DNA of 64,000 nt from an uncultured Clostridia bacterium (GTDB lineage Bacteria > Bacillota > Clostridia > Lachnospirales > Lachnospiraceae): the NCBI GenBank assembly GCA_948467395.1, contig CAOKDX010000011.1, positions 1 through 64,000 of the forward strand, in the 5' to 3' direction. Below the pieces are notes generated by a model, which made no database searches, was not told the origin of the DNA, and saw only the letters and a program-made list of their open reading frames with translations. Within the stretch, counting starts at the first letter, position 1. Each line of letters opens with the position of its first letter. Below are positions 12,299 to 29,451 of this stretch, one piece after another. The position numbers were made by a program, and so were the translations under genes.

Positions 12299-12661
12299 AT
12301 GAATACTATTCTTGTTGTAGACGATTCCGCTCTTATACGGAATATGATTAAAGATATGTTATCTGGTGCAGGCTATGAGATAGTGGGCGAGGCTCTGGAT
12401 GGGCAGCAGGCATTGGAAAAATATAAAAAGCTCAAACCAGACCTTACTATTATGGACATCATTATGGACTGTGTGGATGGTATTCGGTCACTTGCCATGA
12501 TCAGGGAGTATGATGCAAAAGCTGTGGTGGTTATGTGCTCCGCTATGGATCAGGAATCTTATGTGATGGAGGCGCTGCGCCTGGGGGCGAAAGAATTTAT
12601 TGTAAAGCCCCTTGAAAGGGAAGAAGTACTGGCAGCTGTTTCACGGGCACTGCAGAAATGA
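12299..12661 (+). CDS. Stand-alone CheY-like response regulator
   Basis: The 120-residue protein is a single receiver domain with no output domain. The acidic pair D8/D9, the phospho-acceptor D53 (in LTIMDIIMD), the switch region MCSAM, and the conserved Lys in FIVKPL are all present. The usual Pro a few residues after the acceptor (D-x-x-M-P) is replaced by Asp, a small oddity. AAGGGGATGG precedes the ATG, its own promoter lies upstream and a terminator downstream, so it is a single-gene unit. No kinase or chemotaxis gene is nearby, so its partner is elsewhere. CheY-like domains act by protein-protein contact; the target is unknown. Confidence 0.85.
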   Translation: MNTILVVDDSALIRNMIKDMLSGAGYEIVGEALDGQQALEKYKKLKPDLTIMDIIMDCVDGIRSLAMIREYDAKAVVVMCSAMDQESYVMEALRLGAKEFIVKPLEREEVLAAVSRALQK

Positions 12662-12732
12662 TTATATTAAAAATATTTGACATAGTCCACCGGCCGTAAT
12701 ACAATGAAAAAAGGAAAGTATCCCCTCCTACG

Positions 12733-12770
12733 AAGCGCTCATTTCAAAGATGGGTGCTTTTTTTATTTTA
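12733..12770 (+). terminator. Rho-independent terminator of the CheY-like gene
   Basis: AAGCGCTCAT and ATGGGTGCTT form an imperfect 10-bp stem with a 7-base loop, followed by TTTTTTATTTTA. Confidence 0.7.
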
Positions 12771-12784
12771 CAGAAAAGTTCCTT

Positions 12785-12838
12785 TTGTGCGGAGGGAAAA
12801 CACGAAGTGTTTATAGCTGCCAGGGCGGTTTTCAGTGG
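12785..12838 (+). repeat. Copy A of a structured intergenic element
   Basis: TTGTGCGGAG, then a small hairpin (AAACAC-GAA-GTGTTT), then GCGGTTTTCAGT. The same flanks and hairpin geometry, with a different stem sequence, occur at 59279-59334. Each copy lies just after a terminator hairpin. Confidence 0.5.
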
Positions 12839-12853
12839 AAGATCGGCAAGACA

Positions 12854-12885
12854 GCGATATAACCACTCCAAACTGGTTATAACCA
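12854..12885. promoter_or_regulatory. Distal operator pair for the GntR regulator
   Basis: TGGTTATAACCA (12874-12885) is a perfect 12-bp palindrome. A weaker copy, GCGATATAACCA, lies at 12854-12865, exactly 20 bp upstream. The same arrangement recurs at 13026-13057. Confidence 0.6.
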
Positions 12886-12982
12886 ATTTAGAATGTAATT
12901 TGACTGCTATTTAGCAAATAAACCTGAAAAATTTGTATATAATGCATAAAAAATGACAAAAAAACTAGATATTTTTACGATA

Positions 12983-13014
12983 TTGACTTTTAACTGGTAT
13001 TATTATATTATAAT
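12983..13014 (+). promoter_or_regulatory. Probable promoter of the nucleoside operon
   Basis: A very A+T-rich stretch holds TTGACT (12983-12988) and TATAAT (13009-13014). The 20-bp gap is longer than ideal, so one of the boxes may differ from those named. It lies between the two operator pairs, with the proximal pair overlapping the likely transcription start. Confidence 0.4.
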
Positions 13015-13025
13015 GACAACAGATG

Positions 13026-13057
13026 TGGTTATGACCAGTTAATTATGGATATAACCA
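13026..13057. promoter_or_regulatory. Proximal operator pair for the GntR regulator
   Basis: TGGTTATGACCA (13026-13037) and TGGATATAACCA (13046-13057) repeat the same near-palindrome 20 bp apart, i.e. on the same face of the helix, directly between the promoter and the regulator gene. GntR/HutC regulators bind palindromes of this size; here binding is inferred. Confidence 0.7.
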
Positions 13058-13079
13058 GAAAAAGAAAGGGGGAATTGAA

Positions 13080-13808
13080 ATGGAGGAATTTAAGGCGCCT
13101 AAATATCTCCAGGTCAAACAGAAGATAATACATAATATTGATAACGGTTCATATAAGGAAAAGGAAGCGATTCCCAGTGAGAGGGAATTGATCACACTTT
13201 TCGATGTGAGCAGGATTACGGTTCGAAAGGCAATTGACGAATTGGTCAATGAGGGATATCTATACCGTATTCACGGAAAAGGTACATATGTAAAAGGGGA
13301 AGGAGATCAGAACAATCTGGTATCCATCACCAGTTGTACGCAGGACATTGAGGAGCTGGGCTACACACCGAGCCGGAAGGTTTTAAGCGATGAGGTCATC
13401 CCTGCGGATGCAAAGAGGCGGACAAGTCTGAATCTCAGCGATGCAGATCAGGTATTCCGGCTGTCACGTATTTATTTTGCGGACGAGGAGCCATTAAACT
13501 TTACCACCACATACCTTCCGTATAAGATTTTTCCGGATATCGATCTATATGATTTTTCAAAGGTTTCTTTGTACAAGATTATAGAAGAGAAATATGGTGT
13601 GAAGATTACGAAAGCGACACGCACCATCGAAGCAGTCAGCGCCCACGGTGAACTGGCGGAGAATCTGGACGTGGAAGAAAATGTTCCATTACTGCAGTTT
13701 TGCTGTACAACATATGGACAGGTGAATGGGAAAGAAATTCCCATTGAGTATTTCAAATGCTGTTATCGAACCGATAAATTCAAGTTCTATATTCATCAAC
13801 TGCGTTAG
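13080..13808 (+). CDS. GntR-family (HutC/UTRA) regulator of the nucleoside operon
   Basis: The 242-residue protein has an N-terminal GntR winged helix (residues about 8-75: YLQVKQKI, IPSERELITLFDVSRITVRKAIDELVNEGYLYRIHGKGTYV) and a C-terminal UTRA effector domain (about 95-240), which in this family binds sugars, sugar phosphates or related small molecules and relieves repression. It heads a rightward gene set for transport and breakdown of a nucleoside-like compound and ends 19 bases before the binding-protein gene. Four copies of a TGGTTATAACCA-type palindrome lie upstream, so it very likely controls the whole set including itself. The effector may be the imported compound or a phosphorylated intermediate. 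Confidence 0.9.
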   Translation: MEEFKAPKYLQVKQKIIHNIDNGSYKEKEAIPSERELITLFDVSRITVRKAIDELVNEGYLYRIHGKGTYVKGEGDQNNLVSITSCTQDIEELGYTPSRKVLSDEVIPADAKRRTSLNLSDADQVFRLSRIYFADEEPLNFTTTYLPYKIFPDIDLYDFSKVSLYKIIEEKYGVKITKATRTIEAVSAHGELAENLDVEENVPLLQFCCTTYGQVNGKEIPIEYFKCCYRTDKFKFYIHQLR

Positions 13809-13827
13809 CAAAAGAAAGGAGAACGGC

Positions 13828-15009
13828 ATGAAAAGAAGAGCTGGTACTTTAGTTTTAGTAATGGCATTACTGTGTTCCATGATATTGACAGGCTGCGGCA
13901 GTGAAGGGGATTCCGGGGATAAGGCGGGCAGCTCCAGTGATCTGAAGGTTGCGATCGTATGTTCCAATTCCGGACAGAATGACAACGGGTACAATCAGTC
14001 CGCCTGCGATGGTATCAAGGAATTATCCGAAAAGATCGGATGTGAATATAAGATCATCGAGCCTGCCAACGGTGTTCCGGAAGCGCTGGAGACCTTAGCG
14101 GCAGATGGCTACAACCTGATTTTCTCCCTGGAATATGACTTCGATGCACTGATCAAGGGTGTTGGCGGATCTGAGGCGATTGCAGCGCAATATCCGGATA
14201 CAACATTTGTCGTGTTTAATGACGATCCAAACAAGGACGACTCGGGCAAACAGATCTACAATAATGTAATTTCCGTATTGTTTGATGTTCATGAAGCATC
14301 TTACCTTGCCGGTTACTTATCGGTACAGGTAAATGAGAATATGGGAAAACTGTTTGATAATTCTTATAAGCTGACGCCTCTGGATAAGTCAAGGGGAATC
14401 GGATTCATCGGCGGAACGAATTCCAATGGGATTCTTGTGTATTCCTATGGATTTATTGAGGGCATCAACAAGGCGGCGGAGGAGTACAAGGCAAAATACA
14501 ACTACTATGCGAAATACGATGCAGGCTTTACCGATTCCGCCCTTGGAAGTACCGTTGCAGGAACGTTCTACGATGAGGGGGCAAACGTTGTATTTGCAGA
14601 TGCGGGCGTTGTTGGCGACGGTATTACGGCTAAGGCCAAGGAGGTTGGCAAGCTGGCGATCCAGACAGACGCCAATTTAGATGCGCAGCAGCCGGGCTTC
14701 GTCCTCACCAGTGTATTGAAGATCACAGGCGTTCCGGTGAAGACGATCACAGAGGCCTATGCAGATGGCAGGATTAACGAGATGGAAAGGCTGCAGACAT
14801 ACAATCTTGCGTCCGGGGCTACCGGAATTACCGATCTGGAAGAGATGGGCAAGCATGTGCAGGATCAGGCGGTATGGACAGAGATCAAAGAGAAGGTAAA
14901 GGCGGTCAGCGATGACATTGCCAACGGAAAAATTGACGTGACGAACAAACAGTTAAACGAAGATTTTGATCCGGCATCCTGTCCCAATGTAACAGTGAAA
15001 ACAGAATAG
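13828..15009 (+). CDS. BMP-family substrate-binding lipoprotein (nucleoside ABC importer)
   Basis: The 393-residue protein has a lipoprotein signal with the lipobox LTGC (lipidated C23) and a mature domain of the BMP/PnrA/Med type: DLKVAIVCSNSGQNDNGYNQSACDGI at the start, later FVVFNDDP, IGFIGGTNSNGILVYSYGFIEGI and VFADAGVVGDG, which correspond to the nucleoside-binding cleft of PnrA-like proteins. It would sit on the outer face of the membrane and deliver ligand to the two permeases downstream. The start is ATG 13828 behind AAAGGAG; an in-frame extension to 13726 overlaps the regulator gene and is discarded. The most probable ligand class is nucleosides, by family. Confidence 0.88.
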   Translation: MKRRAGTLVLVMALLCSMILTGCGSEGDSGDKAGSSSDLKVAIVCSNSGQNDNGYNQSACDGIKELSEKIGCEYKIIEPANGVPEALETLAADGYNLIFSLEYDFDALIKGVGGSEAIAAQYPDTTFVVFNDDPNKDDSGKQIYNNVISVLFDVHEASYLAGYLSVQVNENMGKLFDNSYKLTPLDKSRGIGFIGGTNSNGILVYSYGFIEGINKAAEEYKAKYNYYAKYDAGFTDSALGSTVAGTFYDEGANVVFADAGVVGDGITAKAKEVGKLAIQTDANLDAQQPGFVLTSVLKITGVPVKTITEAYADGRINEMERLQTYNLASGATGITDLEEMGKHVQDQAVWTEIKEKVKAVSDDIANGKIDVTNKQLNEDFDPASCPNVTVKTE

Positions 15010-15023
15010 ACATACAACCAGCT

Positions 15024-15064
15024 AAGGGCGCCTAAGGATGTGGTGAAGGGCTTTAGGCGCCCTT
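15024..15064 (+). other. Strong intercistronic hairpin after the binding-protein gene
   Basis: GGGCGCCTAA (15026-15035) pairs perfectly with TTAGGCGCCC (15053-15062), extended by two A-T pairs. No T-run follows, so it is more likely an mRNA-stabilising or processing structure that lets the lipoprotein be made in excess over the transporter subunits. Confidence 0.6.
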
Positions 15065-15091
15065 GCTGTATCCAAAATGAGGAGAGTTGCT

Positions 15092-16633
15092 ATGAGTATG
15101 ATTATTGAGACACAAAATTTGACGAAAAAATTCGGTGATTTTGTCGCAAATAATAATATTAATCTCCAGGTAGGAAAGCAGGAAATCAAATGTATTGTTG
15201 GGGAAAACGGTGCCGGTAAGTCAACCTTGATGAATATGCTCTATGGCGTATTCCGGCCGACAAGTGGAAAGATACTCCTGAATGGGGAAGAGCTTGTAAT
15301 GAATTCTCCCACCGACGCCATCCGGCATGGAATCGGTATGGTGCATCAGCATTTTAAACTGGTGCCGAGCTTTACCGTTTACGAGAACATTCTGCTTGGA
15401 AGTGAGATTACGAAAAAGGGCTTGATCGACCGACGGAAGGAGATCGAAAAGGTAAAGGAGTTAATCGAGCAGTACCATTTTCAGATCGATCCGATGGCAA
15501 GGATACAGGATATTTCGGTGGGACTGTGCCAGCAGGTTGAGATTTTGAAAATGCTATACCGGAATGTCGATATCCTGATTCTGGATGAGCCCACGGCGGT
15601 TCTTACGCCGCAGGAGGTCGATCAGCTGATGGAAAATCTGAAGGTGCTGCGGGATCAGGGCAAGACCATTATCGTTATCACCCATAAGCTGCGGGAAGTA
15701 ATGTATCTGAGCGACAGTGTGACAGTGATAAAGAGCGGCCAGGTGATCGGTAATGTGAAGACACAGGATACCAGTGAGACCGAGCTGGCGCAGATGATGG
15801 TTGGACGCGATGTCGTCCTCACAGTAAAGAACGAGAATGGTCCGGCTCCCAACGAGGAAGAAGCCTACCGTGTGGAAAACATATGCACGGTAAACGATGC
15901 CAATCAGGAGATCCTGCACAATGTTTCGCTGCACGTGCGCAAAGGTGAGGTGTTGGGAATTGCCGGTGTAGAGGGCAATGGGCAGAGTGAGCTGATCAAG
16001 GTATTGACGGGCGTGATGACCGTGACGAAGGGAAGAGTGATATTGAACAACAAGGACATTACCAACGCCTGGCCGGATAAGCTTCGCAAATTTGGAATCG
16101 GAATCATTCCCGAGGACCGCTATGCCCAGGGCTTGTGCCAGGATATGTCCATACCGGAGAACTGTATCGCAGGATATTTTGACACCCATAATGTCTGCAG
16201 GAAAGGCATTCTCAGTGGGAAAAACATGAAACAGCTCTGTAATGATTTCATCCAGAAGTATGACATCCGTGTATCCGACCGGTATGGCCTTGTATCCCAG
16301 TTATCCGGTGGAAATGCCCAGAAGGTGATCATTGCAAGAGAGTTTGAGAATAATCCGGATCTGATCATTGCCTGTCAGCCGACCCGGGGCGTTGATATCG
16401 GCTCCATCGAATTTATCCATCGACAGCTTTTGGCGCTTCGCAATGCAGGAAAGGCAGTACTGCTCATATCCAGTGAATTGTCAGAAATCATGAGTTTATC
16501 TGACCGGGTTGCCGTAATGTATAAGGGCGGCATCATTGGCGAGGTGGATCCCCGGGTGACGACTTCGGAGGAAATTGGATTACTGATGGCAGGCGCCGGT
16601 GAGAAAGGAGGGGGCGGACATGGGGAAGAGTAA
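15092..16633 (+). CDS. Nucleoside ABC transporter ATP-binding protein (two ATPase domains)
   Basis: The 513-residue protein holds two ABC ATPase domains in tandem, as in RbsA/MglA/YufO-type importers. Domain 1 (about 1-235): Walker A GENGAGKST, signature region ISVGLCQQVEI, Walker B DILILDEPTAVLTPQE, H-loop ITHKL. Domain 2 (about 255-505): degenerate Walker A GVEGNGQSEL, signature QLSGGNAQKVI, and Walker B region LIIACQPTRGVD, where the catalytic Glu is replaced, so this half is probably weakly active or regulatory. Start is ATG 15092, after GAGGAG. It overlaps the first permease gene by 14 bases. It powers import of the BMP-protein ligand. Confidence 0.9.
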   Translation: MSMIIETQNLTKKFGDFVANNNINLQVGKQEIKCIVGENGAGKSTLMNMLYGVFRPTSGKILLNGEELVMNSPTDAIRHGIGMVHQHFKLVPSFTVYENILLGSEITKKGLIDRRKEIEKVKELIEQYHFQIDPMARIQDISVGLCQQVEILKMLYRNVDILILDEPTAVLTPQEVDQLMENLKVLRDQGKTIIVITHKLREVMYLSDSVTVIKSGQVIGNVKTQDTSETELAQMMVGRDVVLTVKNENGPAPNEEEAYRVENICTVNDANQEILHNVSLHVRKGEVLGIAGVEGNGQSELIKVLTGVMTVTKGRVILNNKDITNAWPDKLRKFGIGIIPEDRYAQGLCQDMSIPENCIAGYFDTHNVCRKGILSGKNMKQLCNDFIQKYDIRVSDRYGLVSQLSGGNAQKVIIAREFENNPDLIIACQPTRGVDIGSIEFIHRQLLALRNAGKAVLLISSELSEIMSLSDRVAVMYKGGIIGEVDPRVTTSEEIGLLMAGAGEKGGGGHGEE

Positions 16634-17702
16634 AGTAAGCTACATCGGTCCAAAGATTCTAAATACACTGCTTCCTGTGGCATTGGCATTCTTTATTGGC
16701 GGCATTATCATCCTCTGTATTGGAGAAAATCCAATTGAGGCCTATCGCATGATGCTGGGGAAATCACTTTTTACGACGAGAGGATTTTTAAATACCCTGC
16801 ATTATGCCTCCCCGTTACTGCTGACAGGGCTCGCCATCGCCATCACCTTTAAGGCGAATATATTCAACATGGGAGTGGAGGGACAGCTCTTATTCGGCGG
16901 GTTTTTCGCCGGAATAGCCGGCGCCGCCATGAATTTATCCAGTTCTGTGCTGGAGAAGGTGATCTGCATGGCCATCGGAATGGCATGCGGCGTACTGTTC
17001 GCCTTGGTTCCGGCAATCCTGCGGGCATACTTCCATGTGGATGAAATGGTAGTCACCCTGATGCTGAACTATGCCATGATCAAGGTGTTGGAATATCTAT
17101 CCTCCGGTCCGTTCCGGGAGGCCGGCTCTGGGTATGTATGTACGCCGACCATCAACGGGAGCGCTATGTTTAAGAGGCTGGGCATTGACAATTCCAGGCT
17201 GACCATGTTTTTCTTTATCGCATTGGCGGTGCTGATCGTTATGACCTTCCTATTCAGGAAAACGAAGCTGGGGCTGCAGATAACCGCCATCGGGAATAAC
17301 CCCGATTTTGCAGAGGCAACCGGAATGCGCGTCAGAAGAAAGATCATTCTCCTCATGTGCATCAGCGGTGCGCTGGCCGGGCTTGCCGGCTCCGGACAGA
17401 TGATGAGTGAGAAATTCAAATATACATTGGCGTTCTCTGGTACAACGGGACTTGGCTGGGACGGAATGCTGATCGCACTTTTGGGAAGACACAATCCGAT
17501 CGGTATCCTGCTGGCGGCTATTTTCTTCAGCGCACTGAAAACCGGAGCGGACAACATTAACATGTATACATCGGTGCCAAAGGAAATCGTAGGCGTCCTC
17601 CAGAGCCTGATCATTCTCTTCCTTGCCGTGCAGTTCCTGAATGAACGCTATGGATTGAAAGAGCGTATCCGTAAATGGATGCGTCGAAAGGAGGCGGCAT
17701 AA
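16620..17702 (+). CDS. Nucleoside ABC transporter permease 1
   Basis: The 360-residue membrane protein belongs to the BPD_transp_2 (branched-chain amino acid/ribose type) permeases, close to the NupP/YufP group that works with BMP-type proteins. It has about nine to ten hydrophobic segments, and the conserved loops NIFNMGVEGQLLFGGFFAG near residue 80 and AIGNNPDFAEATGMRVRR near residue 225, the latter matching the coupling region that touches the ATPase. ATG 16620 follows GGAGGGGG and lies inside the end of the ATPase gene, indicating translational coupling. It forms a heteromeric channel with the next product. Confidence 0.9.
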   Translation: MGKSKVSYIGPKILNTLLPVALAFFIGGIIILCIGENPIEAYRMMLGKSLFTTRGFLNTLHYASPLLLTGLAIAITFKANIFNMGVEGQLLFGGFFAGIAGAAMNLSSSVLEKVICMAIGMACGVLFALVPAILRAYFHVDEMVVTLMLNYAMIKVLEYLSSGPFREAGSGYVCTPTINGSAMFKRLGIDNSRLTMFFFIALAVLIVMTFLFRKTKLGLQITAIGNNPDFAEATGMRVRRKIILLMCISGALAGLAGSGQMMSEKFKYTLAFSGTTGLGWDGMLIALLGRHNPIGILLAAIFFSALKTGADNINMYTSVPKEIVGVLQSLIILFLAVQFLNERYGLKERIRKWMRRKEAA

Positions 17703-18607
17703 TGGCATTTCTTAACGGAATAATATACGATTCAATTTATCATGCAGTGCCGATTCTGCTCTGTGTATTAGGCGGCATCTTCGCCTATAAGGCGAATGTG
17801 CTGAATATAGCGCTGGAGGGCATGATGCTGGCCGGTTCCTTCTTCTCCGTCCTGATCAGCTTTCAGACGGGCAATATTATACTGGGATATCTGGCTGCCA
17901 TCGGTGCGTGCCTGGTAATCGGATTGATTTTCGCCTTCTTTGGGGTTTCCTGCAAAGGGAATGTAATCATCATTGGCCTTGCCATCAATATGTCAGTCAC
18001 CGCCATTGCCGGATTTGTTTTACAGCTTATGAACTCCGCAAATATCAGACTGAATTTTACTAACGCGGCGAATTTCAAGATCAACATTCCAGTGGTCGAA
18101 AACATTCCGATCCTCGGGAGCATTCTCAGCGGACACACAGTGATCACTTACATTTCCTTTGTATGTATCGTCCTCATCTGGTTTTTGATGTACCGCACGA
18201 AGTTTGGAATCTATGTGCGTGTCGTTGGGGAAAATGAAGATTCGGCGAAAAGTCTTGGACTGAATACAAACAAATATCGTTATCTGGCCGTACTGCTTGG
18301 CTCCTTCTTCTGCGCATTGGCGGGAATCAATCTGGCCTTGGAGCGGATGACTATTTTTACAAACAATATGACGGCAGGACGTGGATTTATCGCCATTGCG
18401 GCCATCTACTGCGGAAGGGGCGACCCGCTTTCTTCCTCTGTGTATGCCATTATCTTCGGCCTGGCAAGAGCGCTTTCTGTGAATTTTAGCTTACATGCCG
18501 GCGCCGCTGCCGCCGTATTCGACGTCATTCCCTATGTGGTGATGACGGTGGTATTGACTGTGGTATCTATTGTGAAATATCGAAATCATAAAGTACGCGG
18601 GGTGTAA
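17702..18607 (+). CDS. Nucleoside ABC transporter permease 2
   Basis: The 301-residue membrane protein is the second, shorter BPD_transp_2 permease (NupQ/YufQ-like), with about eight to nine hydrophobic segments. Conserved stretches include AYKANVLNIALEGMMLAGSF near residue 30 and VVGENEDSAKSLGLNTNKY near residue 180, the ATPase-coupling loop. Its ATG overlaps the stop codon of permease 1 by one base (TAATG), behind AAAGGAGG. Together with permease 1, the ATPase and the lipoprotein it makes a complete nucleoside-type importer. Four bases separate it from the hydrolase gene, tying import to catabolism. Confidence 0.9.
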   Translation: MAFLNGIIYDSIYHAVPILLCVLGGIFAYKANVLNIALEGMMLAGSFFSVLISFQTGNIILGYLAAIGACLVIGLIFAFFGVSCKGNVIIIGLAINMSVTAIAGFVLQLMNSANIRLNFTNAANFKINIPVVENIPILGSILSGHTVITYISFVCIVLIWFLMYRTKFGIYVRVVGENEDSAKSLGLNTNKYRYLAVLLGSFFCALAGINLALERMTIFTNNMTAGRGFIAIAAIYCGRGDPLSSSVYAIIFGLARALSVNFSLHAGAAAAVFDVIPYVVMTVVLTVVSIVKYRNHKVRGV

Positions 18608-18610
18608 GAT

Positions 18611-19177
18611 ATGGGAAAGAGTGCTTTGATCATAGTAGACATGGTCCGGGACTTTACCGATCCCGAGGGACTTGTCTACTATCCGGAAAACAGAAATATA
18701 CTGAAACATATTCAGAAGGTGCTGGAGGCGGCCAGAAAACGAAATCTCCTGGTTATCTTCCTTCAGCACCGGAACCGCAGGGGAAAGATAGACCGGAAAG
18801 CGGCTGCCATGAGACCAAACTGCATGGAGGGGACATTCGGAATCGAGATCGATCCGCTCCTGACCGTGGATGAGGAGAAGGATTATGTGATTCCAAAGAG
18901 AAGATACAGCGGCTTTTTCGGCACCGATCTGGATCTGGTACTGCGGGAAAACGGCATTGAAAATACGATTATTGTCGGGACAAAAACCAACTGCTGCATT
19001 CGTGCCACCGTAACCGACGCCTTTTATCTGGACTACACACCGTATGTGATCCGGGAATGCGTGGCTACCAATGACGAAGTGGTCAATGAGGTACATCTAA
19101 AGGATATTGATAAGTATCTGGGGCATGTCATCGACATGAAGAGGTTTCAGGAGATGTTAGATCAGGAGGAACTATAG
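18611..19177 (+). CDS. Isochorismatase-family cysteine hydrolase
   Basis: The 188-residue protein has the catalytic triad of this family: D10 (ALIIVDMVRDF), K96 (IPKRRYSGF) and C129 (GTKTNCCIRATVTDAF). Members include nicotinamidase, N-carbamoylsarcosine amidase and ureidoacrylate amidase, all cleaving C-N bonds of small amides through a thioester; true isochorismatases lack the Cys, so an amidase role is favoured here. The gene lies only four bases after the permease and is followed by kinase and phosphorylase genes, which suggests it removes an amide, carbamoyl or ureido group from the imported compound or its base. The actual substrate is unknown. Confidence 0.85.
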   Translation: MGKSALIIVDMVRDFTDPEGLVYYPENRNILKHIQKVLEAARKRNLLVIFLQHRNRRGKIDRKAAAMRPNCMEGTFGIEIDPLLTVDEEKDYVIPKRRYSGFFGTDLDLVLRENGIENTIIVGTKTNCCIRATVTDAFYLDYTPYVIRECVATNDEVVNEVHLKDIDKYLGHVIDMKRFQEMLDQEEL

Positions 19178-19212
19178 AATGATCGGCAAAAACTAGTGTA
19201 AGGAGGTCTGGC

Positions 19213-20172
19213 TTGGAAATGAGTAGAAGAAAAACAGATGTGTTGACAAGTGGCTATGTCAGTATGGACCACATCATTCGGATCGCTTCGCCGGCGCGCA
19301 TTGGGTTCACCTCTCTCGTTCAGAACCAATCCAATGTGGACATCAACTACGGCGGATGCTCCGTCAATATTGCTTATGCCCTGTGCAGGCTTGGCATGCG
19401 TGCACTGCCAATCCTTCGTGTTGGCGAGGACTTCGAATCCAACGGGTTTAAGCAGTTCCTGATGGAGGGAAATGTTCCCTTGGACGGCATAACAGAGATT
19501 CCCGATGAAAAGACCAGTGTGTGTTATCTGCTGCAGGATAACAACAACAATCATATCACCATTTTCTATCCCGGCGCGATGGATGAAAAATATGCGGGAC
19601 CGATGAAGGATGAAATGTTTGAAAATGTACGTCTTGGCGTGATCACGGTGGCGCCGCAGAAGGATAACCGGGAATTTTTTAACCAGTGTAAGAAACATAA
19701 CATTCCCATCGTATTTGGCATGAAGGATGATTTTAATGCGTTTCCGGAGGAGTTTTTAAAGACACTGCTGACAGAGAGTGATATCATTTTTTCCAATGAA
19801 GTAGAGCGGAAGATCATGGAGGAGCTGCTGGGAATGAAGGACATCGAAGAGCTGTTTCGGATCGGAAAAGCCAACATCATTGTAACGACATTGGGGAAGG
19901 ACGGAAGTCTGTGCTATATACGGGAGAAGGACGGGATCCGTCGGGAAAAAATCGGAATCTGTGAGGTGGAGCATGTGGTGGACGCCACCGGATCCGGCGA
20001 CGGCTATATGGCAGGATTTATCTATGGCTATCTGAATGGCTGTGATCCGAAGAACTGCTGTGAGCTGGGAAGCGCCCTGTCACATTTTGTACTGCAAAAA
20101 GAGGGATGCTGCTCGAATATCCCGACGGAGCAGGCGCTTCTTGCGAAGGCGGAAGAGAACAGGATGAAATAA
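19213..20172 (+). CDS. PfkB-family sugar/nucleoside kinase
   Basis: The 319-residue protein has the ribokinase/PfkB fold. The N-terminal signature region reads NYGGCSVNIAYALCRLGM (about residues 37-54), and the C-terminal one VDATGSGDGYMAGFIYGYL (about 257-275), which holds the anion-hole glycines and the catalytic Asp of GXGD. Relatives phosphorylate ribose, adenosine, fructose phosphates or pseudouridine; which one cannot be told here. TTG 19213 is chosen as start, six bases after AGGAGG; an ATG two codons later is possible. In context it could phosphorylate a nucleoside or the ribose-1-phosphate released by the next enzyme. Confidence 0.85.
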   Translation: MEMSRRKTDVLTSGYVSMDHIIRIASPARIGFTSLVQNQSNVDINYGGCSVNIAYALCRLGMRALPILRVGEDFESNGFKQFLMEGNVPLDGITEIPDEKTSVCYLLQDNNNNHITIFYPGAMDEKYAGPMKDEMFENVRLGVITVAPQKDNREFFNQCKKHNIPIVFGMKDDFNAFPEEFLKTLLTESDIIFSNEVERKIMEELLGMKDIEELFRIGKANIIVTTLGKDGSLCYIREKDGIRREKIGICEVEHVVDATGSGDGYMAGFIYGYLNGCDPKNCCELGSALSHFVLQKEGCCSNIPTEQALLAKAEENRMK

Positions 20173-20184
20173 GGGAGGCGATGA

Positions 20185-20943
20185 GTGAGAATGAGTACTT
20201 TATATATGGGCGCTGACAGAGAGACAGTGTCGAAATACGTTTTATTTTCCGGAGATCCCTGGCGGGTAGAGGTGATAAAAAAATATCTCGATGAGCCGAA
20301 ACAGGTTGCCTTTATGAGGGAGTTCAATACCTATACCGGGACATATAAAGGTGTGGCGGTCACCGTGACCTCCACGGGGATCGGAGCCCCGTCAGCGGCT
20401 ATCGCCATGGAGGAAATGTATGAGGCGGGCATGGAGGTCGCCGTCCGCATGGGAACGGTGATGTCCATGCGGGACGATATGCTGGGGCATTTCATGATCC
20501 CACTGGCCGCTATGAGACGGGAAAGCACCAGTCAGACATATGTGGATCTAAGCTATCCGGCAGTTGCCGATTTCGAACTGGTAAATGTTATGAACGAAAC
20601 GGTTACAGCCATGGGGAAACGATATGCAAACGGCCTGAACTGTACTATGGACGGATTCTATAGCTGCATGCACGATTCTAAGTTTTCCAAGGAATGGGGG
20701 CGCGATATGTCCCGAACCTTTGAGGAGGTAAAGAAACTTGGCGTCACCGGAATTGATATGGAATCCTCCTGCATGATGACTCTGGGAAGATTGATGAATG
20801 TGAAAACCTGTGTGCTTACACTGGTAACCGTTCTGGAAAATCTGAAAGAGACACTCCAGGGCCGGGAACGGACGGATGCAGAAGATCTGTTGTGCAGGAC
20901 GGCTTTAGAAGGAATTTATAATTATCATGCAAAAGGGAGGTAA
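20185..20943 (+). CDS. Nucleoside phosphorylase, uridine-phosphorylase-like with altered base site
   Basis: The 252-residue protein belongs to the PNP/UDP phosphorylase family. Phosphate-site motifs are present: FSGDPWRVE (GDP-x-R) and VRMGTVMSM (R-x-G-T), and GIDMESSCMM carries the Met-Glu pair that holds ribose. In E. coli uridine phosphorylase the uracil is bound by Gln166 and Arg168 (GQER); at the matching place this protein reads FYSCMHDSK, so both are absent. It is therefore probably a nucleoside phosphorylase for a base other than uracil. GTG 20185, six bases after GGGAGG, is taken as start. It would release base and (deoxy)ribose-1-phosphate from the imported nucleoside. Confidence 0.8.
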   Translation: MRMSTLYMGADRETVSKYVLFSGDPWRVEVIKKYLDEPKQVAFMREFNTYTGTYKGVAVTVTSTGIGAPSAAIAMEEMYEAGMEVAVRMGTVMSMRDDMLGHFMIPLAAMRRESTSQTYVDLSYPAVADFELVNVMNETVTAMGKRYANGLNCTMDGFYSCMHDSKFSKEWGRDMSRTFEEVKKLGVTGIDMESSCMMTLGRLMNVKTCVLTLVTVLENLKETLQGRERTDAEDLLCRTALEGIYNYHAKGR

Positions 20944-20950
20944 AGAGACT

Positions 20951-21739
20951 ATGAGTAAAGAATTATTTGAATTACAGGCATCTACTATTATCGGTATGGT
21001 ACACTGCCTTCCGCTGCCGACGACGGCCGGATTTTCCGGAGATTATCAGAAAGTGATAGAGCAGGCGGTGCAGGATGCGGTGACACTGGAAAAAGCGGGG
21101 GTGGACGCAGTCATTGTAGAAAATATGGGTGACACTCCATTTTCTGCCCATGTGAATAAAGCTCAATTAGCGGCGTTGACGGCGGCGGCGGCAGCGGTGC
21201 GGAATGCTGTGAAGATTCCCATTGGAATCGATGCAGCGTTTAACGACTGTGAGGCGGACATCGCCATCGCAGCGGTGACAGGGGCGTCCTTTATCCGGGT
21301 TCCGGTGTTTGTCGATACCGTGTGCACCACCGATGGGATCCTTTATCCCTGTGCGAAGAAATGTATGGAGTTTCGCAAACAAATGGGCCTGGAACATGTG
21401 AAGATCCTGGCGGATGTCCAGGTAAAGCATGCCCATATGGTGCTGCCCTATATCACCATTGAGCAGTCCGCATGCGAGGCGGCAGACAGCGGCGCAGACG
21501 GGATTATCGTAACCGGGACGCAGATAGGAGAAGAGACGCCGATCGATCTGATCAGACGTGTCAAGCAGGTAGTGAAGCTCCCTGTCTTTGCCGGCAGTGG
21601 TGTCAAAGCAGAAAATATAAAGGAACAGATGCAGGTTGCGGATGGTGCGATCATTGGCTCCAGCTTAAAGGAAGGCGGCATATTGACGAATCCCATCGAC
21701 TATGACCTGGTGAAAAAAGTATTGAACGGATTAGCATAA
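20951..21739 (+). CDS. BtpA/SgcQ-family TIM-barrel protein
   Basis: The 262-residue protein matches the BtpA/SgcQ family: IIGMVHCLPLPTT near the start, DAVIVENMGDTPFSAHVN, FIRVPVFVDT, LADVQVKHAH, and a C-terminal phosphate-binding end GVKAENIKEQM...GAIIGSSLKEGG typical of TIM barrels that bind phosphorylated substrates. SgcQ is encoded among sugar-uptake genes in E. coli and BtpA was linked to photosystem I accumulation in cyanobacteria; the reaction is not established for either, so none is claimed here. ATG 20951 follows GGGAGG. Its place between nucleoside phosphorylase and alcohol dehydrogenase suggests it handles the sugar-phosphate half of the substrate, perhaps in a lyase or isomerase step. 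Confidence 0.8.
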   Translation: MSKELFELQASTIIGMVHCLPLPTTAGFSGDYQKVIEQAVQDAVTLEKAGVDAVIVENMGDTPFSAHVNKAQLAALTAAAAAVRNAVKIPIGIDAAFNDCEADIAIAAVTGASFIRVPVFVDTVCTTDGILYPCAKKCMEFRKQMGLEHVKILADVQVKHAHMVLPYITIEQSACEAADSGADGIIVTGTQIGEETPIDLIRRVKQVVKLPVFAGSGVKAENIKEQMQVADGAIIGSSLKEGGILTNPIDYDLVKKVLNGLA

Positions 21740-21750
21740 GGAGTGAGATT

Positions 21751-22899
21751 ATGATGAGACCTATGAAATTGGCAGGCTCTGAATTGATGTTCGGAGCGGG
21801 CAGCCTGGATTACATAAAGAGTATCCATGTGGAGAGAGCAAGTATTGTTGTGGGCGGAAGCAGTATGGAGAAGAGTGGCATGCTGGCGAAGGTGCAGGAG
21901 CTGTTCTGCGAGGCGGGGGCGCAGGTAAGCGTGATCCGCGGCGTGGAGCCGGATCCGTCCCTGGAAACGGTTCTGCGCGGGGCGGGGGAGATGCTGGAGT
22001 TCCAGCCGGATCTCATCGTCGGCTTAGGCGGTGGATCTGCCATGGATGCGGCAAAGGCTATGTGGATTTATTATGAGCACCCGGAATTGAAGACCATCGA
22101 AGAAATTCTGCCGCCCAATGAATTTCCTAAATTGAGGAATAAGGCAAGACTTTGCTGTATCCCGTCCACAAGCGGGACGGCCAGCGAGGTATCCCGTTCC
22201 ATCGTGATCTCGGATAATGAACGCGGCGTAAAACACGGGATAGGAAATATGGAAATGATGCCTGACATTGCCATTTGTGATCCGGCAGTCACCATGTCCA
22301 TGCCTGGGCACATCACGGCGGAGACGGGAATGGACGCCATGACGCATGCGGTGGAGGCTCTGGTTTCCCAGCGTGCAAACTATTTATCGGACATTCTGGC
22401 CAGGCAGGCAGTGAAAGATATTTTCGCCTATCTGCCCGTGGCATACGAAGAGGGAGCGAATGTGGAAGCCAGAGAGAAAATGTTGAACGCCTCCATGGCG
22501 GCAGGTCTGGCTTTCACCAATGTGTCCCTTGGGATCGTCCACTCCATCGCACATACACTGGGAAGCTTCTTCCATATCGCTCATGGGCTTGGGGACGCCA
22601 TTGTGCTTCCCTATGTGATTCATTTCAACGAGATGAAAAGCGACGGGGCCCGGGACATCTACAGGAATCTGGCGGAAGAACAGAAGGCGGAGAGCTTTGA
22701 GGAAAGCATCCTTGAATTAAATAAGAAGTTACATATTGCAGATAGAATCTCGGCACTGCTCAGTGAAGAACAGAGAGCAGAATATCAGGAGAGAATTCCG
22801 GAGATGGCGGACATGGCGCTGGCAGACGGATGTACAAAGACCAATCCTGTCATACCCACAAAGGCAGAGATGGAGGAGCTGTTCAAAACTATTTTTTAG
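21751..22899 (+). CDS. Iron-containing (group III) alcohol dehydrogenase
   Basis: The 382-residue protein has the two-domain layout of Fe-dependent alcohol dehydrogenases. The N-terminal NAD(P) domain shows LIVGLGGGSAMDAAKAM (about residues 89-105). The metal ligands are visible in ETGMDAMTHAVEAL (Asp and His), VHSIAHTLG (His) and HIAHGLGDAI (His). Such enzymes interconvert small aldehydes and alcohols. AAGGAGTGAG precedes the ATG. In this operon it lies between the BtpA-type barrel and the TrpA-like aldolase, so a likely job is to reduce an aldehyde made when the carbon skeleton is cut, recycling NADH in an anaerobe. Confidence 0.9.
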   Translation: MMRPMKLAGSELMFGAGSLDYIKSIHVERASIVVGGSSMEKSGMLAKVQELFCEAGAQVSVIRGVEPDPSLETVLRGAGEMLEFQPDLIVGLGGGSAMDAAKAMWIYYEHPELKTIEEILPPNEFPKLRNKARLCCIPSTSGTASEVSRSIVISDNERGVKHGIGNMEMMPDIAICDPAVTMSMPGHITAETGMDAMTHAVEALVSQRANYLSDILARQAVKDIFAYLPVAYEEGANVEAREKMLNASMAAGLAFTNVSLGIVHSIAHTLGSFFHIAHGLGDAIVLPYVIHFNEMKSDGARDIYRNLAEEQKAESFEESILELNKKLHIADRISALLSEEQRAEYQERIPEMADMALADGCTKTNPVIPTKAEMEELFKTIF

Positions 22900-22914
22900 A
22901 AGGAAGGGAGAAAA

Positions 22915-23631
22915 ATGAAACTGATCTGTTATTTATCCAATGGATATCCTACAATTGAAAGCAGTATTGAGATGGCAGAAATATATTCAGAGGCCGGCTG
23001 TGATGTGATTGAAATCGACTTTCCGTCTGCAGATCCGTTTCTGGAAAGCGAGCTGATCTCTGGAAGAATGGCGAAGGCGCTGGAAAACTGCAGCGATTTC
23101 CAGAAATATATGGACGGAATGGTGACGGCGAAGAAAAACAACCCCGATACATCCTTTATTCTTTTGTCCTATGAAAATACCATCAGACAAATGGGATATG
23201 AGGTGTTCGAGAAATTTTGCCTGGAACACGGTTTTATGGATCTGATTCTGGTGGGGCTGGAGGACGAAACGATTAAAAATAAACTGATCGAAGCCGGCGT
23301 CCGGGTGAGCTGCTATGTGCAGTATCATCTGGATGAAGACGAGGTGGAGTCGGCCATCCGCTCCAATGGATTTGTCTATCTCCAGGCCAAACCCACCACA
23401 GGGAATGTCAATCCGGAGTATCCAGAACTGAAGGACTGCATACAGTACCTGAGAGACCGTGGCATTACAAGACCGATCTACTGCGGTGTGGGGATCTACC
23501 AGCCGGAGGATGTTTCGATGGCGAAGGAGGCAGGGGCAGACGGCGTATTTGTAGGCAGCACCGTATTGAAGCTGCACGATGATATTCCGGCGCTGAAGGC
23601 AAAGATCAAAGAGTTAAAAGAGGAGTGTTAA
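22915..23631 (+). CDS. TrpA-like aldolase without a TrpB partner
   Basis: The 238-residue protein is a TIM barrel related to tryptophan synthase alpha. E33 in VIEIDFPSADPFLES aligns with catalytic Glu49 of E. coli TrpA, and E44 with Asp60; the genuine TrpA at 36.6 kb also has Glu at the second place. The phosphate-binding end YCGVGIYQPEDVSMAKEAGADGVFVGS matches TrpA's GFGIS...GAxSGSA. TrpB-contacting segments look shortened, and no trpB lies nearby. TrpA splits indole-glycerol-phosphate by retro-aldol cleavage giving glyceraldehyde 3-phosphate; this homologue may cleave another phosphorylated compound derived from the imported nucleoside. That role is inference. Confidence 0.75.
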   Translation: MKLICYLSNGYPTIESSIEMAEIYSEAGCDVIEIDFPSADPFLESELISGRMAKALENCSDFQKYMDGMVTAKKNNPDTSFILLSYENTIRQMGYEVFEKFCLEHGFMDLILVGLEDETIKNKLIEAGVRVSCYVQYHLDEDEVESAIRSNGFVYLQAKPTTGNVNPEYPELKDCIQYLRDRGITRPIYCGVGIYQPEDVSMAKEAGADGVFVGSTVLKLHDDIPALKAKIKELKEEC

Positions 23632-23640
23632 AAATCAGGA

Positions 23641-23679
23641 CAGCCTGGCGGCGGGCCTCCAATTGGCACCGCCAGGCTG
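23641..23679 (+). other. Intercistronic hairpin before the VOC gene
   Basis: CAGCCTGGCGG (23641-23651) pairs perfectly with CCGCCAGGCTG (23669-23679), loop 17 bases, no T-run after it. It probably lowers or separates expression of the last gene, or stabilises the upstream message end. Confidence 0.55.
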
Positions 23680-23722
23680 AGACGATAGAGGATTCGTCTG
23701 GGAAGGCAGAAAGGAGAATATC

Positions 23723-24181
23723 ATGGCAAGAGCAAAAAGTATTTCGATCATCACCCTGGGGGTGGATGATCTGGAGCGGTCGATCCGTTTCTATGAATCC
23801 CTTGGATGGGAATGTTCACCGGAGTCAGATCCTGGGATCTGCACCTATATGCTTGCGGACAATATCGTGCTGGGTCTGGTTCCCTATGATTTCCTTGGGC
23901 ATGATGCCCAGATGGAGGTGACTCCCAAAACGCAGTACCGGGGGTTCACCCTGGCCATTAACGGCAGCAGTGCGAAAGAAGTAGACGAGTTGTTTGAGGC
24001 GGCAGTAAACGCCGGTGCCACAAGCTGGCAGAAGCCGCAGTGGAAGGACTGGGGAGGCTGCGATGGGTACTCGGGATATTTTCTGGATCCGGACGGGTAT
24101 CCCTGGGAGGCTGCCTATGCGCCTTTCCTGAGATTATCGGAAGATAACCGGCTCCTGCCGAAGACAAAGGATGAGGTGTAG
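23723..24181 (+). CDS. VOC (glyoxalase/bleomycin-resistance) family protein
   Basis: The 152-residue protein has the paired beta-alpha-beta-beta-beta units of the vicinal-oxygen-chelate superfamily: SIITLGVDDLERSIRFYESLGW at the start and GYSGYFLDPDGYPWEAAYAPF near the end, with a Glu in the usual metal-ligand strand (WEAAY). Members are isomerases, lyases, dioxygenases or binding proteins, so the activity is open. AAAGGAGAATATC precedes the ATG. It is the last gene of the operon-like series, separated from the TrpA-like gene by 91 bases containing a hairpin, so it may be expressed at a different level. Confidence 0.8.
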   Translation: MARAKSISIITLGVDDLERSIRFYESLGWECSPESDPGICTYMLADNIVLGLVPYDFLGHDAQMEVTPKTQYRGFTLAINGSSAKEVDELFEAAVNAGATSWQKPQWKDWGGCDGYSGYFLDPDGYPWEAAYAPFLRLSEDNRLLPKTKDEV

Positions 24182-24197
24182 AGGGGAAAGGAGATGT

Positions 24198-24569
24198 TCA
24201 GTCCCACTCAATGTCGTCGCCGTTTTCGCGGACGATGCGGTATAATTCATCCTCATTTTCAATCAGTGAGACAATGATTTCTGCGAACCGCTGCGCCTTT
24301 TTTTCATTTTCTTCCGTAATGTCTTCATAGTAAGCGGCATAGGAACCGGCCTCGGGATCGCTTTCCAGCCCTTCCAGAATGTCAGGTGCATGTTCGGCGA
24401 GATAATAGTTGAATAAGGCGTCCCAGTTGTATCCGTTCATATACGCATATTCATTGATCTCACACATTTTTTCTCCGATGGCATAGGGCTTGTCGTTCTC
24501 GTTGTAGAACCATACCCCGATCCAGTCGTCATTTTTACTAACCTTTACATAATCCGGCATAGTAATCAA
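24198..24569 (-). CDS. Imm51-like immunity protein (orphan)
   Basis: The 123-residue acidic protein resembles Imm51-family immunity proteins: WIGVWFYNENDKPYAIGEKM, NGYNWDALFNYYL, and ESDPEAGSYAAYYED are close to the family pattern as I remember it. Such proteins neutralise a cognate toxin in polymorphic-toxin systems, but many stand alone in Firmicutes. No toxin gene is next to it; on one side is the VOC gene (convergent), on the other an XRE regulator (divergent). It has its own promoter (24614-24642). The family call needs a profile search to be firm. Confidence 0.5.
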   Translation of the reverse strand: MITMPDYVKVSKNDDWIGVWFYNENDKPYAIGEKMCEINEYAYMNGYNWDALFNYYLAEHAPDILEGLESDPEAGSYAAYYEDITEENEKKAQRFAEIIVSLIENEDELYRIVRENGDDIEWD

Positions 24570-24613
24570 CCTCCTTGGTTTTTTATTTCTATTGGTGCAG
24601 TTAAGTTAATATT

Positions 24614-24642
24614 ATTATAAGCCCAGGCATTCTAATTGGCAA
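24614..24642 (-). promoter_or_regulatory. Promoter of the Imm51-like gene
   Basis: On the minus strand TTGCCA (24637-24642) and TATAAT (24614-24619) are separated by 17 bp. Confidence 0.65.
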
Positions 24643-24741
24643 GACCTGCAGGGATCATGCCGCAATGGAGGATGAAGCGTTTTTTGCCGCATCTTGTCGA
24701 ATACATGAACAATATTGCATATTATAATGAACTATAGTGAA

Positions 24742-24770
24742 TTGTCTCGATCAAAAGGGTGTTATATAAT
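24742..24770 (+). promoter_or_regulatory. Promoter of the XRE-type gene
   Basis: TTGTCT (24742-24747) and TATAAT (24765-24770) with a 17-bp spacer lie 20 bases before the ATG. Confidence 0.65.
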
Positions 24771-24790
24771 ACTTTTTGAGGTGAGTTGTA

Positions 24791-25126
24791 ATGTATTGCA
24801 ATAGGGAAGTGCTAGGAGATGTTGTCCGGGCGACAAGGAAGAGCAGGCATTTGTCACAGGAAGCTCTGGCGGAGCGGATTGGTGTATGTAAGAGAACGAT
24901 AATTGATATAGAGAGCAATACAGGTAATCCTAAATTTGAGATATTGTACCCCCTGGTACGGGAGCTGGACCTGCCGCTTTTTCAGTTGTTTTATCCTGAG
25001 GTGGAGGAGAACCTGAAGTTAAAAAATGTACTTATGCAGGAACTGAGCTGCTGTTCGGATTATGAGATGAAGGTGATCCTGTCCGTGGTGAAAAGCCTGC
25101 GGTATACCCTGAGAAATGAGAACTGA
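24791..25126 (+). CDS. XRE-family helix-turn-helix regulator
   Basis: The 111-residue protein has a Cro/CI-type HTH in residues about 8-62: VVRATRKSRHLSQEALAERIGVCKRTIIDIESNTGNPKFEILYPLV, where SQEALAERIG and the recognition helix KRTIIDIE are clear. The C-terminal 45 residues (acidic, then helical) may mediate dimerisation. GAGGTGAG precedes the ATG. It has its own promoter and terminator and is divergent from the Imm51-like gene, which could be its target. No phage genes are nearby, so it is not obviously of prophage origin. Confidence 0.85.
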   Translation: MYCNREVLGDVVRATRKSRHLSQEALAERIGVCKRTIIDIESNTGNPKFEILYPLVRELDLPLFQLFYPEVEENLKLKNVLMQELSCCSDYEMKVILSVVKSLRYTLRNEN

Positions 25127-26372: not shown

Positions 26373-26397
26373 AGAGAAGAGATAACGGGGGCATAAA

Positions 26398-29300: not shown

Positions 29301-29451
29301 CCCGTTGGCAGAGATTCCCATTATTGCCATGACTGCCAATGCCTTTGACGAGGACAGAAAGGCGGCGTTTGAAGCGGGGATGAACGGTCATGTGGCGAAA
29401 CCAATCGATACCCCGAAGCTGCTGGAGCTTCTGGGAGAAATATTGTACTAA
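26398..29451 (+). CDS. Hybrid sensor histidine kinase with two receiver domains
   Basis: The 1017-residue membrane protein has: TM1 (about 17-40), an extracellular sensor region (about 41-298, Cache-like), TM2 (about 300-327), a PAS domain (about 360-480), HisKA with H518 in [15 protein letters not shown], an HATPase domain (N box [13 protein letters not shown] boxes DTGIGM and [10 protein letters not shown]), receiver 1 (about 755-870, acceptor Asp in [11 protein letters not shown]) and receiver 2 (about 895-1015, acceptor Asp in [13 protein letters not shown]). No DNA-binding output or Hpt domain is present, so signal exit goes through another protein. It is co-transcribed with the upstream binding lipoprotein, its likely ligand-sensing partner. 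Confidence 0.88.

Follow-up and report, generated by a model that had tools for sequence, protein, structure and literature searches.

A conserved bacterial gene unit that joins a nucleoside-type importer to BtpA and TrpA-like barrel proteins, and its possible role in nucleoside-sugar catabolism

We analysed a 64-kb window, that is, the whole stretch of 64,000 nucleotides from contig CAOKDX010000011.1 (assembly GCA_948467395.1) of an uncultured Clostridia bacterium of the Lachnospiraceae, in which twelve open reading frames (ORFs), all on the + strand, lie one behind another at 13080-24181 (Table 1). As judged from the ORF list and Pfam, every gene had a family match above cut-off: GntR with UTRA, Bmp, ABC_tran, two BPD_transp_2, Isochorismatase, PfkB, PNP_UDP_1, BtpA, Fe-ADH, Trp_syntA and Glyoxalase. 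An earlier account made from the letters alone (the sequence-only reading) had described twelve rightward, closely spaced genes with a regulator of their own, a kinase, two barrel proteins and a reductase, and all of these were recovered. Intergenic gaps from the GntR gene through the TrpA-like gene ranged from -11 to 85 nt (computed with codons 15095 for the ATPase and 16623 for permease 1, the ATG starts being 15092 and 16620), and the gap between the TrpA-like gene and the last gene, encoding a VOC-fold protein, was 91 nt. The hairpin in this gap is strong, a 97-nt stretch folding at -37 kcal/mol with a z of -3.84, and was not listed by the terminator scan.

Table 1. Genes and putative regulatory features of the locus, in window coordinates
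Feature	Position	Strand	Basis or remark
Operator-like palindrome TGGTTATAACCA	12874..12885		perfect match; recovered in exact whole-genome scan as well
Promoter-like site TTGACT-17-TATTAT	12983..13011	+	consensus match alone; sits between operator-like sites
Operator-like palindrome TGGTTATGACCA	13026..13037		one mismatch
Operator-like site TGGATATAACCA	13046..13057		one mismatch
GntR/UTRA regulator	13080..13808	+	Pfam UTRA 7e-35, GntR 5e-19
BMP substrate-binding lipoprotein	13828..15009	+	Pfam Bmp 4e-31
Importer ABC ATPase	15092..16633	+	Pfam ABC_tran
Permease 1	16620..17702	+	Pfam BPD_transp_2
Permease 2	17702..18607	+	Pfam BPD_transp_2
Isochorismatase-type cysteine hydrolase	18611..19177	+	Pfam Isochorismatase 9e-42
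PfkB kinase, possibly nucleoside or ribose-1-phosphate type	19213..20172	+	Pfam; best solved relative MJ0406
Uridine-phosphorylase-like nucleoside phosphorylase, altered pocket	20191..20943	+	PNP_UDP_1; Y5, M160, T213 signature
BtpA/SgcQ family protein, proposed isomerase	20951..21739	+	TIGR00259 231.5 bits vs cut-off 153.4
Iron-containing alcohol dehydrogenase, proposed aldehyde reductase	21754..22899	+	Pfam Fe-ADH
TrpA paralogue, proposed phosphosugar aldolase	22915..23631	+	Pfam Trp_syntA 5e-30
Hairpin, 39 nt, between TrpA-like and VOC genes	23641..23679	+	z -3.84 for the 97-nt stretch
VOC-fold protein, accessory	23723..24181	+	Glyoxalase 8e-11

The locus was looked for with four aligned TrpA-like proteins as query, in 84,980 species represented by one genome each. 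The scan retained at least 80 loci, and all locus counts, being drawn from these, are lower bounds. Forty-six loci carried a TrpA-like gene (identity of at least 44%), while 34 more distant ones, at 25-29%, were read as true TrpA and dropped. Co-occurrence in other genomes was one of the tests by which the sequence-only reading had agreed to stand or fall, and the series from BMP lipoprotein to TrpA-like protein (BMP, ATPase, two permeases, hydrolase, kinase, phosphorylase, BtpA, alcohol dehydrogenase, TrpA-like) was found complete, in one order and on one strand, in 36 of the 38 loci having at least 9.5 kb upstream. These 38 loci span Bacillota, Actinomycetota (Atopobiaceae), Spirochaetota and Mycoplasmatota, and shorter Chloroflexota contigs (L025, L041 and L060) agree with the gene order as far as their sequence extends. 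Counted in loci with room for the gene in question, the alcohol dehydrogenase was present in 45/45, BtpA in 42/43, the phosphorylase in 41/41, the kinase and the hydrolase in 40/40 each, each permease in 39/39, the ATPase in 38/38 and BMP in 37/38. Of the two exceptions, the Sporolactobacillus locus (L039) has no BtpA in place, and in L061 two kinases were present and BMP was not seen; the L061 ATPase gene starts at base 335 of the stretch and BMP may lie beyond. In this Oscillospiraceae locus (L061:3897-10723) the two PfkB genes flank the hydrolase gene, and a second TrpA-like match lies just ahead of the main one.

The GntR gene was present in 36 of the 46 loci, several of those lacking it being short contigs, and in five (L040, L043, L050, L054 and L061) it lies downstream of the TrpA-like gene. 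A locus from another family of the window's order (L013, genome G081) has the same gene order with GntR at the 3' end and without the VOC gene. The VOC protein, which had been counted as a member of the set, was carried by only 12 of the 46 loci; it is an add-on outside the core of eleven genes, and its candidacy as a pathway step was set aside on that count. It may be noted that the related rows are not independent: L019-L024 are very close to the window, and L046 hardly differs from L049.

Since the TrpA-like protein had served as bait, we ran the reverse test with the phosphorylase. Of 99 genomes, eight contain the phosphorylase (E <= 1e-40) and the same eight contain the TrpA-like protein (E <= 1e-20), the window's own included and seven of them of one genus; the corresponding value of 1/C(99,8) = 6e-12 is far too small given shared descent. 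In a sample of 398 genomes of the phylum, each of the two was found in one genome, the window's own (E <= 1e-30 and 1e-45). Compared over 37 rows, the ten proteins have pairwise distances that correlate at 0.71-0.96, values which shared descent inflates and for which no null model was made. The eleven genes from the regulator to the TrpA paralogue are a real gene unit.

The last member of this unit belongs to the TrpA family by PF00290 (104.9 bits against a cut-off of 27) and falls just under the trpA equivalog cut-off (100.7 against 102.35). Like TrpA, it has the presumed catalytic Glu and the presumed phosphate-site glycines; unlike TrpA, it shares no more than the 25-29% identity given above with the 34 loci read as true TrpA, and no trpB lies among the twelve genes of the operon. 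A separate TrpA-family match (PF00290, 284.8 bits) at 36621-37355 on the + strand, about 13 kb downstream of the paralogue, is read as the ordinary TrpA of the genome. We therefore rejected a plain tryptophan enzyme, as a true TrpA is present elsewhere in the window and the two groups are far apart (identity of at least 44% against at most 29%). E33 of the TrpA-like protein was conserved in 47/47 rows, the window included, and position 44 was Glu in 44/47 and Asp in 3/47; we take these to correspond to the catalytic residues of TrpA numbered Glu49 and Asp60. One solved TrpA in the alignment likewise has Glu at the Asp60 position. Two further acidic residues, D35 (46/47) and E87 (44/47), were also conserved.

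The phosphorylase and BtpA trees both group the operon of the window's genus, among the rows listed, with Coprococcus comes and others; the clade has 14 rows and support of 99/98 and 99/96. In the TrpA-like tree, holding those 14 rows together with L024 was rejected by the AU test (p 0.00017, on 42 rows after exclusion of five long ones). By identity, the nearest relatives of the TrpA-like protein outside the genus are Caproiciproducens and two short contigs (L025 and L026), and the forks around the window's TrpA-like clade are weakly supported. It seems from these trees that the TrpA-like gene was swapped in place for a distant orthologue within the window's genus, and such an exchange with the position kept suggests that the TrpA-like step is needed.

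The gene two places ahead encodes a BtpA/SgcQ family protein well above the family cut-off (Table 1), and here it is placed in a nucleoside-type operon. Elsewhere, BtpA genes adjoin sugar kinases and transporters in 4 of 5 contexts inspected, which is consistent with a phosphosugar substrate. No biochemical role of BtpA/SgcQ proteins came up in a literature search of open-licence papers, and a 2026 paper still gives the E. coli sgc operon as unassigned (PMC13343008). Three of the loci seen (L100, L101 and L102, on Rhizobiales and Pantoea plasmids) hold LacI, an ABC transporter, a phosphotriesterase-like protein, a glutamine amidotransferase, PfkB, BtpA and TenA or a Zn-dependent hydrolase, and represent another uncharacterised BtpA setting with nitrogen-group hydrolases. 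In the alcohol dehydrogenase, D194, H198, H263 and H277, which we take to be the ligands, were conserved in 45/45 rows, the window included, and its best score among curated models was with the alcohol dehydrogenase part of AdhE.

For the importer, comparison was made with BmpA, whose nucleoside pocket consists of an aromatic cradle and ribose anchors: Phe27, Phe176, Asp225, Lys242 and Asp98 (PMC13325309). Phe176, Asp225 and Lys242 were matched by the same residues in 38/38 lipoprotein rows, and Phe27 was replaced by Tyr and Asp98 by Asn in all 38. The lipoprotein appears to keep a nucleoside-type pocket in part, in agreement with the nucleoside-type importer that the sequence-only reading had proposed. 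The Asn at position 98 was not retained as a pointer to the sugar, since it is also present in a generic BMP protein (L106). The nearest named NCBIfam model for the ATPase was that of a putative B6 importer ATPase, with a score under the cut-off.

The phosphorylase matched PF01048 above cut-off and its best model was TIGR01718, with 166 bits against an equivalog cut-off of 280; it is of the uridine-phosphorylase-like kind, its score falling short of the cut-off for uridine specificity. The best 60 of its 66 solved relatives are named uridine, purine nucleoside or methylthioadenosine phosphorylases. G21, R25, R43, R86 and T89 were conserved in 42/42 full-length rows and D189, M190 and E191 in 43/43, and presumably have phosphate and ribose roles. 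The altered pocket noticed earlier was upheld as a signature of Y5 (42/42 full-length rows, one row being truncated), M160 (42/43) and T213 (43/43). At the Y5 position uridine phosphorylase has a His which we take to contact the 5'-hydroxyl, and the solved uridine phosphorylase 3qpb has Gln-His at the window's C159-M160. As the genome also carries the phosphopentomutase DeoB and two other PNP-family genes, which could handle ordinary nucleosides or ribose 1-phosphate, the operon is likely meant for an unusual nucleoside.

In the kinase, D19, G47, G48, N52 and D257 were conserved in 41/41 rows, and in the hydrolase D10, K96 and C129 in 41/41, the window included in both; we assume catalytic-type roles for these, as for the conserved residues of the TrpA-like protein. 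The hydrolase resembles ureide and carbamoyl hydrolases (RutB and biuret hydrolase) at scores far under their cut-offs. Its basic residues were considered as a sign of a phosphorylated substrate and dropped, since inspection by eye shows similar ones in 3hb7, a solved relative. Nicotinamidases have an Asp-x-His...His metal site; no such motif was seen by eye in the window's hydrolase, no nicotinamidase alignment having been made. Degradation of nicotinamide riboside was set aside for want of this motif and because a PnuC-linked phosphorylase from Salinivibrio is without the signature. In that Salinivibrio locus (L107:5240-6717) the nucleoside phosphorylase gene lies behind pnuC, suggesting a nicotinamide riboside phosphorylase.

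A second version of the operon was also found. On an Agrobacterium vitis plasmid (L099) it reads, in order, GntR, BMP, ATPase, two permeases, hydrolase, kinase, phosphorylase, a SIS-domain protein and an aldehyde dehydrogenase, and an unannotated Rhizobium lusitanum plasmid (L105) has the same set. In the window's phylum, one locus (L139) has GntR, kinase, hydrolase, phosphorylase, SIS protein, aldehyde dehydrogenase, BMP and ATPase and then reaches the contig end, the permeases being beyond reach. The SIS protein and aldehyde dehydrogenase thus stand in place of BtpA, the alcohol dehydrogenase and the TrpA-like protein. The Tyr/Met/Thr signature was present in all three second-version phosphorylases; in the two other phosphorylases used for comparison the three positions are H, N or D, and V. 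From this common signature, seen in few sequences, both versions probably work on one kind of nucleoside. The A. vitis kinase scored best with the ribose-1-phosphate (R1P) kinase model NF053626 (74.5 bits), and the L139 kinase reached 76.6 bits with this model, level with the third model. Relatives of the hydrolase were matched in 29 of 398 genomes of the phylum, the window's included, and 29 other stretches (L109-L137, with short flanks) were inspected; among them L118 also matched GntR, kinase and phosphorylase, which led to the second version, and L126 had a match to the ATPase alone. Among 7 genomes of the class of L139, the second version was present in one, which was already known. Elsewhere, the SIS family was seen in three contexts, one beside nagA and two beside genes annotated 6-phosphogluconolactonase and amidohydrolase. 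In the R. lusitanum plasmid (L105:2227-4026) a single 599-residue ORF spans both GntR regulator and BMP lipoprotein.

A search of open-licence papers, by titles and abstract openings, found no description of this gene set. The earlier view that no described pathway matches it needs amending as regards the route, since two described pathways share its step logic with other enzymes. In the haloarchaeal non-carboxylating pentose bisphosphate pathway, which has been demonstrated (PMC9700705), guanosine is converted to dihydroxyacetone phosphate (DHAP) and glycolaldehyde, and the latter to ethylene glycol, by a uridine-phosphorylase-like enzyme, a PfkB R1P kinase, a ribose-1,5-bisphosphate (R15P) isomerase, a ribulose-1,5-bisphosphate (RuBP) phosphatase, a ribulose-1-phosphate (Ru1P) aldolase and an aldehyde reductase annotated as glycerol-1-phosphate dehydrogenase, the phosphorylase, kinase and isomerase genes lying in operons. 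Its authors also consider it possible that other variants exist among halophiles and that R1P kinase is more widespread (PMC9700705). The operon is alike in its phosphorylase, PfkB kinase, proposed later sugar cleavage and proposed aldehyde reductase, and unlike in that BtpA and the TrpA-like protein stand where the archaea have R15P isomerase, RuBP phosphatase and FucA-type aldolase; moreover, it is bacterial and adds an importer and an amidohydrolase. By this comparison the operon is no member of the haloarchaeal pathway and may work like one. The salvage of 5-deoxyribose, or DHAP shunt, has the same step logic as well (PMC6079011): nucleoside or sugar to sugar 1-phosphate, then an isomerase, an aldolase and an aldehyde. 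The enzyme families differ, and the PfkB kinase and amidohydrolase are extra in the window's operon.

Taken together, these comparisons give about an even chance that the unit is an operon under its own regulator that serves to take up and catabolise a non-canonical nucleoside bearing an amide or ureide group. The BMP transporter would bring in the nucleoside, the phosphorylase would split it into base and sugar 1-phosphate, and the PfkB kinase would phosphorylate the sugar to a pentose 1,5-bisphosphate-type intermediate. BtpA would then isomerise this to a ketose phosphate, and C-C cleavage by the TrpA-like enzyme would yield two products, a triose phosphate that enters glycolysis and an aldehyde of two carbons (or the phosphate of that aldehyde). 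The aldehyde would be reduced by the iron alcohol dehydrogenase, or oxidised instead in the SIS/aldehyde dehydrogenase version. The isochorismatase-type hydrolase would take off an amide nitrogen, either from the base or from a side chain, a step that would suit its ureide and amide hydrolase relatives. We infer every reaction and substrate here from what was observed, namely the gene set, order, conservation, residues and signature. TrpA performs retro-aldol cleavage, and for this reason BtpA was assigned as isomerase and the TrpA-like protein as aldolase; which barrel does which is the weakest step. The working model offered earlier is supported in outline by the conservation, with the VOC protein removed, a precedent named and the SIS/aldehyde dehydrogenase version added.

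More narrowly, it is possible, though on balance doubtful, that this is a bacterial pathway of pentose-bisphosphate type in which a BtpA isomerase and a TrpA-paralogue aldolase split the sugar of an amide-bearing nucleoside, with a SIS/aldehyde dehydrogenase counterpart elsewhere. If true, it would give a first biochemical role to BtpA/SgcQ and a new reaction to the TrpA fold, as well as a nucleoside-sugar catabolic route in anaerobic bacteria with the SIS/aldehyde dehydrogenase solution for comparison; the strict operon, placing BtpA and the TrpA paralogue after phosphorylase and kinase, defines a substrate set to try. Several observations weigh against the uptake-and-catabolism reading given above. 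The kinase, phosphorylase and alcohol dehydrogenase score far under curated equivalog cut-offs: the window's kinase reaches 99.3 bits with IolC, 83.9 with ribokinase and only 65.6 with the R1P kinase model NF053626 (cut-off 330), and the alcohol dehydrogenase 19.8 bits with the glycolaldehyde reductase model NF053832 (cut-off 550). PF01008, the family of R15P isomerase and MtnA, had no match in the genome, which is 97.68% complete, while 9 of 14 control genomes matched. No RuBP phosphatase or FucA-type Ru1P aldolase is encoded among the twelve genes (the rest of the genome was not searched), and the haloarchaeal route needs the phosphatase. The second version is without an evident aldolase, so that C-C cleavage may not be common to both versions, and in the Sporolactobacillus locus (L039) BtpA is not in place.

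The order of the first two steps may also be reversed. The PfkB protein would then be a nucleoside kinase, and the phosphorylase would act on the nucleoside 5'-monophosphate to give the sugar 1,5-bisphosphate directly. The closest solved relative of the kinase, MJ0406, is presumably a nucleoside kinase, and the replacement of the presumed 5'-hydroxyl-contacting His by Tyr in all 42 full-length rows might suit a 5'-phosphate. The window's kinase also resembles R1P kinases, however, and the names of the solved phosphorylase relatives argue against a monophosphate substrate; we consider this order unlikely.

The Tyr at the same position would equally suit a 5'-deoxy or otherwise 5'-modified nucleoside, from which a 5-deoxypentose 1-phosphate would pass through BtpA and the TrpA-like protein to DHAP and an acetaldehyde-type product, to be reduced by the alcohol dehydrogenase, with a side role for the kinase. 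The step logic would be that of 5-deoxyribose salvage (PMC6079011), and the AdhE-type top score of the alcohol dehydrogenase fits. On the other hand, the MtnA-type isomerase of the DHAP shunt is missing from the genome as far as PF01008 detects it, no class II aldolase is encoded among the twelve operon genes, and a kinase kept in every locus with room for it would have no clear role, making this quite improbable. A base-directed route, in which the aldehyde chemistry and hydrolase degrade the heterocyclic base and the sugar 1-phosphate goes to the ordinary DeoB, would draw on the DeoB gene of the genome and the RutB- and biuret hydrolase-like character of the hydrolase. But the TrpA-like protein and BtpA both keep glycines that we assume to form a phosphate site, and BtpA genes lie elsewhere beside sugar kinases, so their substrates are probably phosphorylated sugars, and we give a base-directed route little credence. 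That the importer is for some other small molecule and the protein of the phosphorylase family splits an unrelated glycoside, as the B6-type ATPase match and the altered pocket might hint, is very unlikely in view of the nucleoside-type residues kept in part by the lipoprotein and the conserved phosphorylase residues to which we assign phosphate and ribose roles.

With regard to the self-regulation proposed for the nucleoside operon, the sequence-only reading had given the regulator operators of its own. Allowing up to two mismatches, TGGTTATAACCA has three sites in the 64 kb, all within 12874-13057; their number is at chance level (2.24 expected, at least three in 35 of 100 shuffles) and their clustering is the notable part. 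The exact form TGGTTATNACCAG has one further site elsewhere in the genome (G000:C1:313882-313894); a wider regulon was considered and set aside. We compared 25 upstream stretches of related loci, 67-299 bases long and many of them cut: the TGGT-ACCA form was present in two (L019 and L021), both of the window's genus, L057 had a shorter match only and 22 had none. Promoter-like sites in the region were not clearly above shuffles (26 against 19.4, standard deviation 3.9), and terminator-like sites were at the shuffled level (10 against 9.8), one such stem lying at 12732-12760 behind the preceding response-regulator gene. An Rfam scan of 12600-25000 matched no family.

Directly beyond the operon, an Imm51-family immunity gene (PF15595, 9e-26) lies at 24198-24569 on the - strand. 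Further on, at 25269-29451 on the + strand, a Peripla_BP_4 lipoprotein gene adjoins a 1017-residue ORF that looks by eye like a hybrid sensor kinase, and the two are possibly a ligand-sensing pair.

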